NCBI GenBank assembly: GCA_019233415.1
Contig: JAFAMK010000203.1
Coordinates: 1 to 34,088, forward strand
Origin: Vulcanimicrobiota bacterium
GTDB taxonomy: Bacteria > Vulcanimicrobiota > Vulcanimicrobiia > Vulcanimicrobiales > Vulcanimicrobiaceae
Length of the DNA stretch: 34,088 bases
Reading direction: 5' to 3'
The position numbers were made by a program, and so were the translations under genes. This document shows positions 29,888 through 34,088 of this stretch, in pieces. Within the stretch, counting starts at the first letter, position 1; the number at the start of each line of letters is the position of its first letter. Under the pieces are notes generated by a model. The model was not told where the DNA came from, made no database searches, and saw only the letters and a program-made list of their open reading frames with translations.

Positions 29888-29967
29888 CCTCTTCCCGGGG
29901 ATTTCTTCCGCCGTTCAATAGTCATTCGTAGTTAATTCCTACCGGTCAGCGATCATCGGGGCAGTGA

Positions 29968-29974
29968 GAGGAGG
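29968..29974 (+). promoter_or_regulatory. Strong ribosome binding site of the BTAD regulator gene
   Basis: GAGGAGG lies 7 nt before the GTG at 29982 and argues against the ORF-track start at 29964, whose first codons it would occupy. The 94-nt gap before it is AT-richer around 29915-29940 and may hold a promoter; no clear -35/-10 pair can be chosen. Confidence 0.75.
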
Positions 29975-29981
29975 CTCCGAC

Positions 29982-31529
29982 GTGGTTAAGCTGCCCCCGC
30001 CTAGTGACGTGCTCCCGAACCGGCCGACCCGGCCGACCCTCGTCGTGGCCGAGCCACAGGCTCAGGTCCGCATCGAGCGGCCGCGTCTGCTGCAAGCACT
30101 CGCCGCGCGGGCCGAGATGCCGATCCGGTTCCTCTGCGCGCCGACCGGCTCCGGAAAGACGACGCTGCTCCGGCAGTACGTCGCCGCGAGGCCGGGTGCC
30201 GCCTACATCGCCACCCCGCTCCGCTTCTCGTCCAGTGCGCTGCGCGAGATCCTCGACGGCACGACCGAGGTCGTCCTCGACGACTTCGATCTCGCCGACC
30301 CGCGCACGGTCGAAGGGCTCATGCGCGCGATCGCCTCGGCCGACTCCGGTCTGCCCCGGCTGATCGTCGCCGGCCGCTCCCGCCGGCTGCTCTACGTCCA
30401 AAGCCTCGTCGCACGCGGTCACGGCGCCGTCCTCGGCGCCCGCGACCTCGCCTTCGACCGCGCCGACGTCGGGCAGCTCGGCACCGCGCTCGGCCTGCGC
30501 CTGACCCGCGACGACGTCACGCAGCTGCTACACGTCACCGAAGGCTGGACGCTGCCGCTGACCTGGATGCTCCGCGCGACCGCGAACGCCGGCTGGACCG
30601 CGCGCGAAGGCGTCGAGCGCTGGCTGAACGACGCCGGCGGCGCACTCCTCGAGCTGGTCGACGAGGCCGGCTCCATCGACGACGACGCGCGCCGCAGCTT
30701 CAACGCCGTCCTGGCCGGCAACGCCGTCGCCGACAACGTCACCGCGACGCAGCTCGAAGCCGCCGGCTGCCCGGTCGTCCGCGACCGCGACGGCGTGCGC
30801 CCCTACCGCATCCTGACCAGCGTCGCCGCCCGCGGCGGCGCGCACCCCGCGACGGTCGCAGCGCCGGAGGACGGCGTGTTCAACGGGTCCGGCCCGGTCG
30901 GCGCGAGCGCGACCGGCGAACGGATGACGATGAAGCTGCTCGGCCGGTTCGTCTGCGAGGTCGGCGGAAACCCCGTCGCGTTCGCACGCCGCCGCGACCG
31001 TAACGTCCTCGCCTACATCGCGCTCGCACCCGGCGCGCGCGTCTCGCGCGACGAACTGCTGGCCGCGTTCTGGCCCGGCGTCACGCACGCCGTCGCCTGC
31101 CAGGGGCTGCGCACCACGCTGTGCCGCCTGCGCCGCGCGATCGCCGACGCCGCGAACGGCGCCGACGCGCAGCGCTACCTGCACGTCGACGCGCACGCCG
31201 CGCTCGACCTCGCCAACGTCGACGTCGACGCGCGCACCTTCGCCGACCTGGCCGACGGCGCCGAACGCGCCGACCGCCGCGGCGACGCCGACCAGGCGCA
31301 GACCGGCTACGTCGAAGCCGAACGCGCGTACGTCGGCCACCTGCTCGAGTCCGACGCCGTCGAAGACCCGCTCACCGCGCGCGTCGCCGAATATGCCGCG
31401 CGCTTCGAACAGGTGCTCGCGCGCCTCGTCGACTTCTCGCTCCGCGAGCACCGCTTCGACGCCGTCCGCACCTACGAGCGCCGCGCCCTCGCCCTGAGCC
31501 TTCCGCCCGTCGCAGGCCGCACCGCGTGA
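29982..31529 (+). CDS. NTPase-winged helix-BTAD transcriptional regulator
   Basis: A 515-residue regulator. Residues about 30-290 form a MalT/STAND-like NTPase with Walker A CAPTGSGKTTLLRQ (about 52-65) and Walker B-like VVLDDFDLAD. A winged-helix DNA-binding domain follows, starting MKLLGRFVCEVGGNPVAF with RRDRNVLAYIALAPGARVSRDELLAAFWPG. The C-terminal BTAD (SARP-type) helical domain includes VDVDARTFADLADGAE and RFEQVLARLVDFSLRE. Such proteins activate adjacent operons when an effector is bound. The order differs from classical SARPs, with the NTPase first. It overlaps the next gene by GTGA and may regulate it, the Tad locus, or the MNIO cassette. Confidence 0.82.
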   Translation: MVKLPPPSDVLPNRPTRPTLVVAEPQAQVRIERPRLLQALAARAEMPIRFLCAPTGSGKTTLLRQYVAARPGAAYIATPLRFSSSALREILDGTTEVVLDDFDLADPRTVEGLMRAIASADSGLPRLIVAGRSRRLLYVQSLVARGHGAVLGARDLAFDRADVGQLGTALGLRLTRDDVTQLLHVTEGWTLPLTWMLRATANAGWTAREGVERWLNDAGGALLELVDEAGSIDDDARRSFNAVLAGNAVADNVTATQLEAAGCPVVRDRDGVRPYRILTSVAARGGAHPATVAAPEDGVFNGSGPVGASATGERMTMKLLGRFVCEVGGNPVAFARRRDRNVLAYIALAPGARVSRDELLAAFWPGVTHAVACQGLRTTLCRLRRAIADAANGADAQRYLHVDAHAALDLANVDVDARTFADLADGAERADRRGDADQAQTGYVEAERAYVGHLLESDAVEDPLTARVAEYAARFEQVLARLVDFSLREHRFDAVRTYERRALALSLPPVAGRTA

Positions 31530-32701
31530 ACCCGATCCGGCCGGTCCACACGAGCCGGCCGGCGCCCGCGAACGGTACGGCGCTCGTCGAATACGTCGGC
31601 GACGGCCTCGCCGCCGACGTGCGCGTCGACGCGGTCGATCACCGCGACGGCGCGGCGTGGTACGTGATCCGTCTCGCCGGTACGTACGAGTCCGCCTCGG
31701 GCCGCATCGTCGGCACCACCGCGCGCGGAACCAAAACGGAACTCGGCACGGTCGACGTCGCGCCCGGCGCGATGGGCACCGCGCGCTTCGCCGTCCCCCT
31801 CGCCAAGACGCGCCGCGCGTTCGACGCGGTCCGCCTCGAACTGCGCTGCGGCGAACGCCACCTCCACGTCGCCGTCCCGCCACCGCCGCCGCGCAAACGC
31901 GGCGGCTTCCGCACCGGCGTTGCCTTGCTCGCCACCGGTCTCGCTGCAACGACCTTGGGTGGCGCAACCTACGCCGCATCCGCGATGCGCCCGCCCGCCA
32001 CGACGGCGCTCCCAATGCTTGCCGCGCCGCACGCACCCGCCGCCGTTCATGCGCCGAGCGCCGCGCGCATCGCCGCCTTCTCGGCGCACCGCGACCTCAT
32101 CGCCGGCGGCGAGAGCGTCCTCGTCTCCTACCTCGCCGTCGCAACGACGGGAACCGCCACGGTCACCGACCCGCAAGGGAACGCGGTCGCGCGCGCCAGC
32201 TTCAGCCGCGAAGGAACGACCCGCATCCCGATCCCGCACGGCCTCGAAACGCGCATGCTCACCGTCCGCCTCGACGTCCGACGCGCCGCATCGCACGCCT
32301 ACGCCACGCTCGACCTCCAGCCGCTCGCCGTCCCCGCAGCTGTCGTGCCGCCGGCGACGGTGAACGCAGCCTCCGCGGCAACCGCGACGATGCGCACGAC
32401 AAGCACGGTTCCTCCCGCGGATGCCGGCACCGAACCATTCGCCGTGGTCGGCGCGCCGCTCGCGGGGCGTCCGCTGACGATCGCGATTCGCGGTCAGGTC
32501 GCCCGGATGCACCTGCGGCTGGAAGACAGCACCGGCCTGGCGCTCGACGAAGTCGACGTTCCCCCGACCGCCACCGCGATCGCACTGCGCACGCCGCCCG
32601 CCGCAGCGCCGCGCATCTACTACCTGACCTGCACCTACGACACCGGCGCCGGCGAGGAAGTCCTCGTTCGCGCGGTCAGCGTCGCATCGTCTCCCACGTA
32701 G
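31526..32701 (+). CDS. Single-pass membrane protein of unknown function
   Basis: The 391-residue product is not recognised. A beta-type cytoplasmic N-terminal domain (about 1-120, with WYVIRLAGTYESASGRIVG and RLELRCGERHLHVAVP) ends in a Pro/Arg stretch (PPPPPRKRGGF). One transmembrane helix follows (VALLATGLAATTLGGATYAA). The outer part is Ala/Thr/Pro-rich with two beta domains (FSAHRDLIAGGESVLVSYLA; GAPLAGRPLTIAIRGQVARM). It resembles an anti-sigma or sensor layout, inside domain-TM-outside Ig-like domains, and could pass an envelope signal to the overlapping BTAD regulator. Its stop lies 7 nt from the stop of the convergent partner gene of the MNIO cassette. Confidence 0.7.
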   Translation: MNPIRPVHTSRPAPANGTALVEYVGDGLAADVRVDAVDHRDGAAWYVIRLAGTYESASGRIVGTTARGTKTELGTVDVAPGAMGTARFAVPLAKTRRAFDAVRLELRCGERHLHVAVPPPPPRKRGGFRTGVALLATGLAATTLGGATYAASAMRPPATTALPMLAAPHAPAAVHAPSAARIAAFSAHRDLIAGGESVLVSYLAVATTGTATVTDPQGNAVARASFSREGTTRIPIPHGLETRMLTVRLDVRRAASHAYATLDLQPLAVPAAVVPPATVNAASAATATMRTTSTVPPADAGTEPFAVVGAPLAGRPLTIAIRGQVARMHLRLEDSTGLALDEVDVPPTATAIALRTPPAAAPRIYYLTCTYDTGAGEEVLVRAVSVASSPT

Positions 32702-32708
32702 CTCGCTG

Positions 32709-33128
32709 CTAGCGGTCGATTCCGAGGCGTACGACGCGCAGCCGGCCCGCGCGCCGGAGTCGCACGTACACCGTGAATCGCCACCCTTCGCGCAACAGCG
32801 TGAACACCGAACCCGGTCCGTTCGCCGCGACGATGCGAGCCTCGACGCGCGCGACTGGAAATCCGACCGAGCGCGCAAACGCGACCGCTTCGTCGCGATA
32901 GCCCTCAGGGCCAACCGACTCGCGCCCGTGCGCGAACGCCCGGTAACGCGCCTCGAACGACGCGCGACCGCACGCGGCGAGCGTGCGCGGCAAAAGCGCG
33001 CGAAGCGCCGTTAGCCGCTTGCGAAACACGATTTCGACGTAGTGCGCGACGTCCGCCTCGTCCACGCCGGGAACGGTCAGTCGCTCACCGGTCAGTGCCC
33101 GAGCGAGCGCGCGCTGATAGGCGATCAT
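32709..33128 (-). CDS. DUF2063/HvfC-like partner of the MNIO enzyme
   Basis: The 139-residue product starts MIAYQRALARALTG, followed by HYVEIVFRKRLTALRALLPRTLAACGRASFEARYRAF. This resembles the N-terminal part of DUF2063 proteins (HvfC/MbnC-like), where a YR-N-(5)-L-EAL--TFP---LLG--FF pattern is usual. The C-terminal half (ARIVAANGPGSVFTLLREGWRFTVYVRLR) is beta-rich and could form an RRE-like leader-binding fold. It is much shorter than typical DUF2063 proteins (about 250 residues). The ATG overlaps the MNIO stop (ATGA). Known partners of this class deliver the precursor to the MNIO enzyme. The 277-residue ORF of the track is a shadow extension. Confidence 0.62.
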   Translation of the reverse strand: MIAYQRALARALTGERLTVPGVDEADVAHYVEIVFRKRLTALRALLPRTLAACGRASFEARYRAFAHGRESVGPEGYRDEAVAFARSVGFPVARVEARIVAANGPGSVFTLLREGWRFTVYVRLRRAGRLRVVRLGIDR

Positions 33129-34018
33129 GCGACGATACGGCCGTGCTGCGCCACACCCGTCATCCTGAGCTTGTCGAAGGACGGCGCGGACTCCGCCGCC
33201 GCGGACTCGACAACCGCGCGTCGCGCCACCGCGCGTGCGGCGTCGAGTTCGGCGAGCAGGGTCTCGAACGGCGGCAGCCCCGTTTCGCGTTCGATCAGCG
33301 TCAGCGGCGGGATGCGGCGCGCGCACAGCGCGGCGTAGAGGCGCCACGTCGCATCGGGAACCGGGGCATCGTGTGAGTCCGCGTACTCGCTGCCGATGCG
33401 GCGACCACCGGCGAGATGCACCTCGACGATGCGTTCGACCGGCACGGCGGCCACGACCGCGTCGGCGTCGCACCCGAGGTTCCAGGCGTCGGCGTGCAGG
33501 TTCTCCACGTCGAGGATCAACCCGCAGTCCGCCGCCGCGCAAACCCCTGCGAGGAATTCCGCCGGCGCAAGCTCCGCGCCGTCGACTGCAAACGGCGCCG
33601 CGGGGTTTTCCAGCGCGAACGGCGCGGTGACGATCGCCCGCACGCGCGCTGCATTGCGCGCGACCACATCCACGGCTTCGTGCGTGTGCGGGAGTGGCGC
33701 GAAGGCGCCGAGCTGCGTCGTTCCGACGCGGGTGAAGGCGAGATGGTCACTCCACCACAGCGGGCGCACGTAGTCGAGCAGACGCGCGATCCGTTCGAGG
33801 TGGCGTTCGTCGACGCCGTCGGCGCTGCCGATCGACGTCCCGAGCGCGTGCACGGTGAGCGGAAAGTGCGCGCGCAGCACCTCCAGCTCGTCGCGCTGCT
33901 CGGCGGTCAGGTCGAGGAAGTGCTCGGCGACGATCTCGAGCGCTTCCACGCGCGGCCGCGTCGCGAAGAGCGCCGCACGCTGCTCGGCGCGGTAGAGCAG
34001 CCCGAAGCGCGGCGTCAC
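33125..34018 (-). CDS. MNIO (DUF692) multinuclear iron oxidative enzyme
   Basis: A 297-residue TIM-barrel protein of the DUF692 family, related to MbnB and TglH, which use two or three iron ions and O2 to modify cysteines in peptides. Likely metal ligands are present: E28 (EIVAEHFLD), H57 (VHALG), D91-H92 (WSDHLAF), E137 (LENP), D170/E172/N173 (DVENLHADA), H201 (EVHLAGG), H216-D217 (SHDAPVP) and E243 (ERE). The GTG at 34018 overlaps the upstream stop (GTGA), matching the family N-terminus RFGLLYRAE. The last 20 residues (from SFDKLRMTG) are encoded by a dispersed repeat plus flanking DNA. Together with the Cys-rich upstream protein and the partner it forms a RiPP-type cassette. Confidence 0.92.
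   Translation of the reverse strand: MTPRFGLLYRAEQRAALFATRPRVEALEIVAEHFLDLTAEQRDELEVLRAHFPLTVHALGTSIGSADGVDERHLERIARLLDYVRPLWWSDHLAFTRVGTTQLGAFAPLPHTHEAVDVVARNAARVRAIVTAPFALENPAAPFAVDGAELAPAEFLAGVCAAADCGLILDVENLHADAWNLGCDADAVVAAVPVERIVEVHLAGGRRIGSEYADSHDAPVPDATWRLYAALCARRIPPLTLIERETGLPPFETLLAELDAARAVARRAVVESAAAESAPSFDKLRMTGVAQHGRIVA
33156..33181 (-). repeat. Dispersed repeat copy 4, inside the 3' end of the MNIO gene
   Basis: cccgtcatcctgagcttgtcgaagga on the plus strand is the reverse complement of the repeat core. It is read in frame as SFDKLRMTG near the C-terminus of the MNIO enzyme, beyond all conserved residues. Confidence 0.85.
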
Positions 34019-34088
34019 CCGCCGCCGCAGCCTCCGCCGCAGCCGCTGCTGCACCCACTGCTGCTGCAGCTGCCGCTGCCGTCGCCGC
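34015..34088 (-). CDS. C-terminal tail of a Cys/Gly/Ser-rich putative MNIO substrate (partial)
   Basis: The minus strand is open from the window edge to a TGA at 34015-34017 and reads GDGSGS then CSSSGCSSGCGGGCGGG-stop: four cysteines separated by three or four small residues. The frame is not in the ORF track because its start lies outside; the track's overlapping Ala-rich frames are shadows. The TGA overlaps the GTG of the MNIO gene. As I recall, proteins of the TIGR04222 family, with hydrophobic N-terminal domains, end in such low-complexity Cys/Gly tails and occur beside DUF692 genes, so the missing part may be that domain. Only 23 full codons are visible, so the assignment rests on composition, frame and coupling. 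Confidence 0.75.
   Translation of the reverse strand, partial: GDGSGSCSSSGCSSGCGGGCGGG

Follow-up and report, generated by a model that had tools for sequence, protein, structure and literature searches.

At the end of a 34,088-nucleotide contig, 23 codons on the minus strand encode four regularly spaced cysteines embedded in serine and glycine, and their stop codon runs into the start of an MNIO gene. What are these codons, and does the adjacent enzyme act on them? The contig, which we call the window, is C388 of a 3.3-Mb MAG of 456 contigs. A preliminary description of the sequence had suggested that the spacers suit repeated modification by one enzyme or a multi-cysteine metal site, and that the Gly codons might also serve the MNIO gene as a ribosome site. 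We consider it probable that the 23 codons encode the C-terminal tail at which a precursor protein is modified by the MNIO, the genes lying in the order precursor, MNIO and partner (Table 1). The type of tail is already known from the literature, and the first interpretation was largely right.

Table 1. Features at the contig end
Feature	Position	Strand	Basis or remark
MNIO (MbnB_TglH_ChrH family) oxidative enzyme, 297 aa	33125..34018	-	PF05114; alignment to relatives, 3BWW and TglH 8HCI
MNIO partner, 139 aa, DUF2063-like helical domain and short three-stranded end (PME-type-2-like)	32709..33128	-	overlaps MNIO end
Precursor gene, C-terminal tail GDGSGSCSSSGCSSGCGGGCGGG	34018..34086	-	gene cut at contig end; homologous tails in relatives
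Precursor stop TGA	34015..34017	-	overlaps MNIO GTG start (GTGA, 4-nt overlap, 34015-34018)
GGAGG in tail Gly codons	34031..34035	-	12 nt before MNIO GTG; weak as ribosome site

Results

A truncated gene ends in a cysteine tail

The tail and its stop occupy the third frame of the minus strand (34086-34015) and read GDGSGS-C-SSSG-C-SSG-C-GGG-C-GGG-TGA. The precursor gene is truncated, with 23 codons and the stop visible and the contig ending 2 bases before the first visible codon. Translation of the minus strand bore out the Cys distances of 5, 4 and 4 with spacers of Ser and Gly only, as well as the described shift of the spacers from Ser to pure Gly toward the stop (permutation p = 0.003 for the order within the window tail). 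Codon choice, for which a comparison had been proposed, agreed for Gly (8 GGC, 2 GGG and 1 GGA in the tail, against fractions of 0.67, 0.18 and 0.08 in the window's genes); the Ser codons were all AGC or AGT, which have frequencies of 0.40 and 0.02 in the other genes. Third positions deviated from C in AGT, GGG, GGA and GGG codons. This third-position variation, together with the overlap with the MNIO start and the homologous tails that relatives have in this position, indicates that the frame is real.

The C-GGG-C-GG coding pattern (CGGGCGG) had a single match in the window and none in 100 dinucleotide shuffles. Across the 3.3-Mb MAG, two matches were found versus one for the reversed control pattern; the second match, on contig C97, proved to be an unrelated 21-codon frame beside a CvpA-like frame. 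The 7-residue motif by itself is thus not improbable across the genome, and the tail is more than chance because similar tails directly precede the MNIO gene in relatives. When the MAG was searched for the missing N-terminal part of the precursor with the precursor of a related genome (G007) and with TIGR04222-type and G007/G005 alignments, no match was obtained. The TIGR04222 model (cut-off, 43 bits) likewise matched nowhere else in the MAG, the N-terminal part of the window precursor lying beyond the contig end.

The neighbouring genes encode an MNIO and a short partner

The window MNIO scored 246.1 bits against PF05114, for which the gathering cut-off is 25. Residues H57, H92, E137, N173, H201, D214, H216 and E243 were invariant among relatives and lined up with conserved positions in 3BWW; going by MNIO structures generally, we take these positions to be the iron ligands. 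The best NCBIfam model was BufB (NF050167; 214.7 bits, below the equivalog cut-off of 310), followed by HvfB (154.9 bits; cut-off, 360), and the ChrH model gave 46.6 bits (cut-off, 600). Identity to the MNIOs of related genomes was 78% for G007, 67% for G005 and 43% for G017.

The partner gene directly follows the MNIO gene in the window and at most related loci. Its product matched PF09836 (DUF2063) with E = 1.7e-4 and 22.2 bits, below the gathering cut-off of 27.2; a PME-type 1 assignment, which takes a DUF2063 domain above the gathering score plus an RRE domain, does not apply, and 139 residues are too few for both domains. An AlphaFold2 model (pLDDT, 88.9) contained six helices and three strands, and a PDB fold search with this model returned no significant match. 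Profile matches of the partner to TAL effectors among PDB sequences were set aside, as no stretch passed alone and they look like compositional artefacts. The N-terminal helices of the MNIO partners in relatives weakly resembled LigA in four cases and a Nif11 leader in one. A plasmid search with the MNIO-partner region yielded no match. In TIGR04222 gene clusters, no DUF2063 genes were found and the partners were assigned to PME-type 2 (PMC12452194); the sequence of the window partner may provide a weak connection between DUF2063 and PME-type 2.

Cysteine tails accompany this MNIO subgroup in many phyla

Genome contigs were scanned with a five-sequence MNIO alignment, which gave 55 loci, 54 of which were examined. 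A frame with a Cys/Gly/Ser tail lay upstream of the MNIO gene on the same strand at 47 of the 54 loci and was mostly about 290-430 residues long, whereas 7 loci had no such frame by this criterion. The tailed precursors span Cyanobacteria, Planctomycetota, Armatimonadota, Acidobacteriota, Alphaproteobacteria, Eremiobacterota and others; in Cyanobacteria, two or three precursor genes often stand in tandem. The usual precursor at these loci is a TIGR04222 membrane protein, a class assignment made with the model itself in Eremiobacterota members, where the G025 and G017 precursors exceeded the NCBIfam cut-off, and by alignment with these members in other phyla.

TIGR04222 (near_uncomplex) membrane proteins have been proposed as MNIO substrates by Antoine et al. 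2025 (PMC12452194), who already described their C-terminal Ser/Gly regions with interspersed Cys and who report no modification for any TIGR04222 protein. In the same study, protein sizes ranged from 70 to 643 residues, more than one-quarter of TIGR04222 proteins overall had no Cys tail and one-third of the genomes with TIGR04222 genes had no MNIO. A full-length homologue without tail cysteines, which the preliminary description had named as evidence against its reading, therefore does occur in TIGR04222 proteins generally, but the TIGR04222-type proteins found directly beside this MNIO subgroup were Cys-tailed.

The gene neighbourhoods varied. In G007, G005 and G017 (loci L097, L098 and L099, respectively), the precursor-MNIO-partner trio comes after a ketosynthase-like gene and lies between genes for an ABC ATPase and an FtsX-type permease; in G017, a CrtC/lipocalin-type gene follows, in an AttEFGH-like arrangement. 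The window has no permease gene beside the trio, and two genes (29964-32701), one of them for a STAND/BTAD-like regulator, converge on it; a similar pair is found beside the G005 operon (L098:1-2370). At six other loci of the same phylum (L072, L074, L076, L078, L079 and L082), MNIOs stand beside GKxxCKG-repeat precursors (bufferin/EGKCG-like), a different type of substrate.

Cysteine spacing follows a rule rather than a fixed register

To quantify spacing, distances between consecutive cysteines in 58 tails (distinct in the last 20 residues) were compared with those in within-tail shuffles; the tails share descent, so the counts that follow overstate the number of independent observations. 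CC and CxC were nearly missing (gap 1, 2 seen versus 58 expected; gap 2, 2 versus 49). Gaps of 4 and 6 were about three- to fourfold in excess (96 versus 34 and 91 versus 24), and gaps of 3 and 5 were seen 59 and 34 times (41 and 29 expected). The 25 tails from outside Cyanobacteria likewise avoided gaps 1 and 2 and had an excess of gap 4. Cysteine was followed by Gly in 263 and by Ser in 115 of 388 cases, 378 together. Toward the C-terminus, the final two cysteines were separated by GG in 36 and by GGG in 11 of the 58 tails, 2-4 residues followed the last Cys in 51, and the Ser fraction fell from 0.70 in the seventh spacer from the end to 0.03 in the last.

The expectation that Cys spacing would be conserved while Ser and Gly vary thus held as a rule, with gaps 3, 4 and 6 favoured and gaps 1 and 2 avoided, and failed as a fixed register across phyla: exact spacing was not conserved between phyla, and end-anchored alignment slipped register in most pairs. 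Four close alphaproteobacterial tails kept three cysteines fixed while their spacers varied (GSS, GMS and GTS; GGS and SGS). We set aside a codon-level comparison of constraint on Cys versus Ser/Gly in end-anchored pairs, because in most pairs indels displace the register and thereby raise the number of Cys replacements; its raw outcome was more Cys than Ser/Gly replacements, and the four alphaproteobacterial tails alone aligned cleanly. The avoidance of adjacent cysteines would be consistent with a modification for which the backbone must be free on either side.

The tail is carried by proteins of different architecture

Among 11 genomes of the genus examined, an MNIO was present in the window genome, G005 and G007 only. 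The G007 precursor is intact, with 224 residues, and had no match to NCBIfam TIGR04222 up to E = 10 (model cut-off, 43 bits). When compared with a profile of 20 membrane-type TIGR04222-type precursors, the G007 carrier gave an hhalign probability of 97.4 and an E-value of 1.4e-11. The TM2-TM3 hairpin region is deleted in this carrier and in that of G005, no 19-residue window of the G007 precursor reached 1.6 on the Kyte-Doolittle scale, i.e. it has no hydrophobic segment, and its stretch matching the fourth segment of the membrane-type proteins (LALALHGPRALDGTRY) is soluble. Residues 11-160 of its predicted structure were confident (pLDDT mostly 81-96) and the tail was of low confidence; a PDB fold search with the G007 carrier found no significant match. 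The carrier of this closest intact relative, judged by its sequence, is a TIGR04222 derivative that has no transmembrane segments. Because the window MNIO is most similar to that of G007, followed by those of G005 and G017, the window carrier is probably an anchor-less TIGR04222 derivative as well. Both the G007 and the G005 tail also carry several His. The G005 precursor frame is broken (L006/G005:C1:2255011-2255660) beside an intact MNIO and partner, owing to either a pseudogene or a sequencing error.

At three of the seven loci without a long precursor (L059, L060 and L065; Akkermansiaceae and Opitutia), frames of 41-75 residues begin at a plausible ATG. These mini-precursors of Verrucomicrobiota consist of one hydrophobic segment and a Cys-Gly tail (e.g. 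MEIVIFLLIILCLGALIGWIASKASGSSRGGGGSGCSGGCSSCSSGDSGGSSCGSSCGGGCGGGE), and two or three occur per locus near the MNIO gene (L059:7322-7817, L060:2869-3304 and L065:4402-5139), downstream on the opposite strand in L059 and L060 and upstream on the same strand in L065. Since the published size range of TIGR04222 proteins begins at 70 residues, some of these short forms may fall within that description (PMC12452194).

We also counted Lys plus Arg per flank in the 18 membrane-type precursors for which four segments were predicted. The averages were 0.4 before TM1, 2.1 after TM1, 2.3 before TM2, 0.9 in the TM2-TM3 loop and 4.6 after TM3, with 1.7 both before and after the fourth segment. The conserved domain of the membrane-type precursors is predicted by the positive-inside rule to be cytoplasmic; the tail would then lie on one side or the other according to whether the fourth segment spans the membrane. 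The tail of TIGR04222 proteins was predicted to be periplasmic by Antoine et al. (PMC12452194). In most mini-precursors, the positive charges after the helix would put the tail inside. It is conceivable, if somewhat short of an even chance, that the Cys-Gly tail is a movable substrate unit which has become attached to at least three carriers, namely the multi-TM TIGR04222 protein, the soluble anchor-less derivative and the 41-75-residue single-helix protein. In the window's genus, the modified tail would then belong to a soluble product, possibly exported by the ABC transporter whose ATPase and permease genes flank the trio in three relatives.

Discussion

Gene linkage and the family-wide spacing rule give good support to the suggestion of the preliminary description that one enzyme, here the adjacent MNIO, modifies a flexible Cys tail repeatedly. 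The N-terminal part of the window precursor would most likely be a TIGR04222-derived carrier domain. In the cytoplasm, the MNIO and its partner would act on the tail and oxidise several spaced cysteines, and the uncharged, flexible Gly/Ser spacers would let successive cysteines enter a single active site. The most likely products would be Cys-derived 5-thiooxazoles (or oxazolone/thioamide groups), and the modified groups could bind a soft metal such as copper.

FonB, a related MNIO, forms 5-thiooxazoles in repeats (PMC13097082). Only Gly or Ala is allowed after Cys in its core repeat and Pro is rejected; Ala, Arg or Thr is tolerated before Cys, and the FonBC product is found in Lys-Cys repeats. 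The text consulted neither mentions Gly before Cys nor names Ser among the tolerated replacements after Cys. FonB is described there as needing a small residue behind Cys and a substrate that is flexible and free of Pro; the present tails, with Gly or Ser after nearly every Cys, would fit this. What speaks against the analogy is that FonBC uses a PME-type 1 partner, whereas the window partner is shorter and distantly DUF2063-like. Repeated oxidation of spaced cysteines appears to be the most economical reading.

TglH acts on a C-terminal Cys. That the MNIO modifies the tail by another chemistry of this kind, such as TglH-type beta-carbon excision, or by crosslinking, is rather unlikely: MNIOs catalyse many reactions and the cysteines are near the C-terminus, but the residues that usually follow the last Cys distinguish these tails from the terminal Cys of the TglH substrate, and the enzyme is nearer in sequence to the BufB and HvfB models than to MbnB or ChrH. 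We hold it to be quite improbable that the tail stays unmodified, as a metallothionein-like or redox (disulfide) segment, while the MNIO acts on another protein. Regular CxxC/CxxxC spacing would suit thiolate metal sites, as would the His residues in the G007 and G005 tails, and the TIGR04222 genomes that have no MNIO (PMC12452194) also favour this view; yet in the window and in relatives precursor, MNIO and partner follow one another tightly and their frames overlap, and the loci at which Cys tails were so prevalent had been picked solely by MNIO similarity.

There is little to recommend the idea that the Gly codons are retained for a second role as the MNIO ribosome site, which we regard as very unlikely. 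The GGAGG of the window and the AGGAGG or GGAGG at 6-8 nt in or beside the last codons of L041, L046 and L062 favour it, in a survey in which start codons were assigned automatically and are noisy; because the latter three sites are good ones, incidental use by ribosomes is possible. In the window, however, the spacing to the GTG is 12 nt, no such site is kept in G007, G005 or G017, and chance alone would fairly often place a GGA ahead of a Gly codon. Moreover, cyanobacteria with a separate MNIO start retain the Gly end, and the Ser-to-Gly gradient was as strong in precursors distant from the MNIO start, with a Ser fraction in the last spacer of 0.00 in the 18 precursors whose end lies more than ~115 nt upstream of the MNIO versus 0.05 in 37 adjacent ones. 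The double function is thereby weakened, since the Gly end is independent of overlap with the MNIO start. Finally, a chance reading of a GC-rich trinucleotide repeat, to which the poly-Ala and poly-Arg/Gln of the remaining frames and the second occurrence of the motif in the MAG might point, can practically be dismissed in view of the third-position variation, the GTGA junction and the tails found at the same place in relatives from many phyla.

When compared with known systems, the substrate oxidation by MNIO and partner that we favour comes closest to TIGR04222 (PMC12452194), with which the window shares a Ser/Gly C-terminus with interspersed Cys, encoded beside an MNIO. The G007 and G005 carriers differ in missing the model cut-off, in being devoid of transmembrane segments and in having His in the tail. 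The captophorins/bufferins (BufA, FonA and HvfA with BufB, FonB and HvfB) likewise combine an MNIO, a DUF2063-related partner and multi-Cys precursors, and BufB gave the best model score for the window MNIO. Unlike in the bufferins, the enzyme is below the equivalog cut-offs, the partner is short and weakly DUF2063-like, there is no signal-peptide precursor of DUF2282 or EGKCG type, and the spacers are of Gly/Ser rather than Lys-containing. TglA/TglH/TglI and ChrA/ChrH share an MNIO, a partner and a Cys substrate, but the window tail is multi-Cys and of low complexity, and its MNIO is distantly similar to theirs.

Beyond what PMC12452194 and PMC13097082 describe, this analysis adds numbers for the spacing rule and for the Ser-to-Gly trend, a carrier devoid of anchors in the window's genus and, in Verrucomicrobiota, carriers with a single helix. 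Among candidate MNIO substrates, TIGR04222 proteins form a large class, and multi-TM proteins make it hard to test their chemistry. The anchor-less or single-helix precursors offer small, expressible substrates with which that chemistry could be tested directly.
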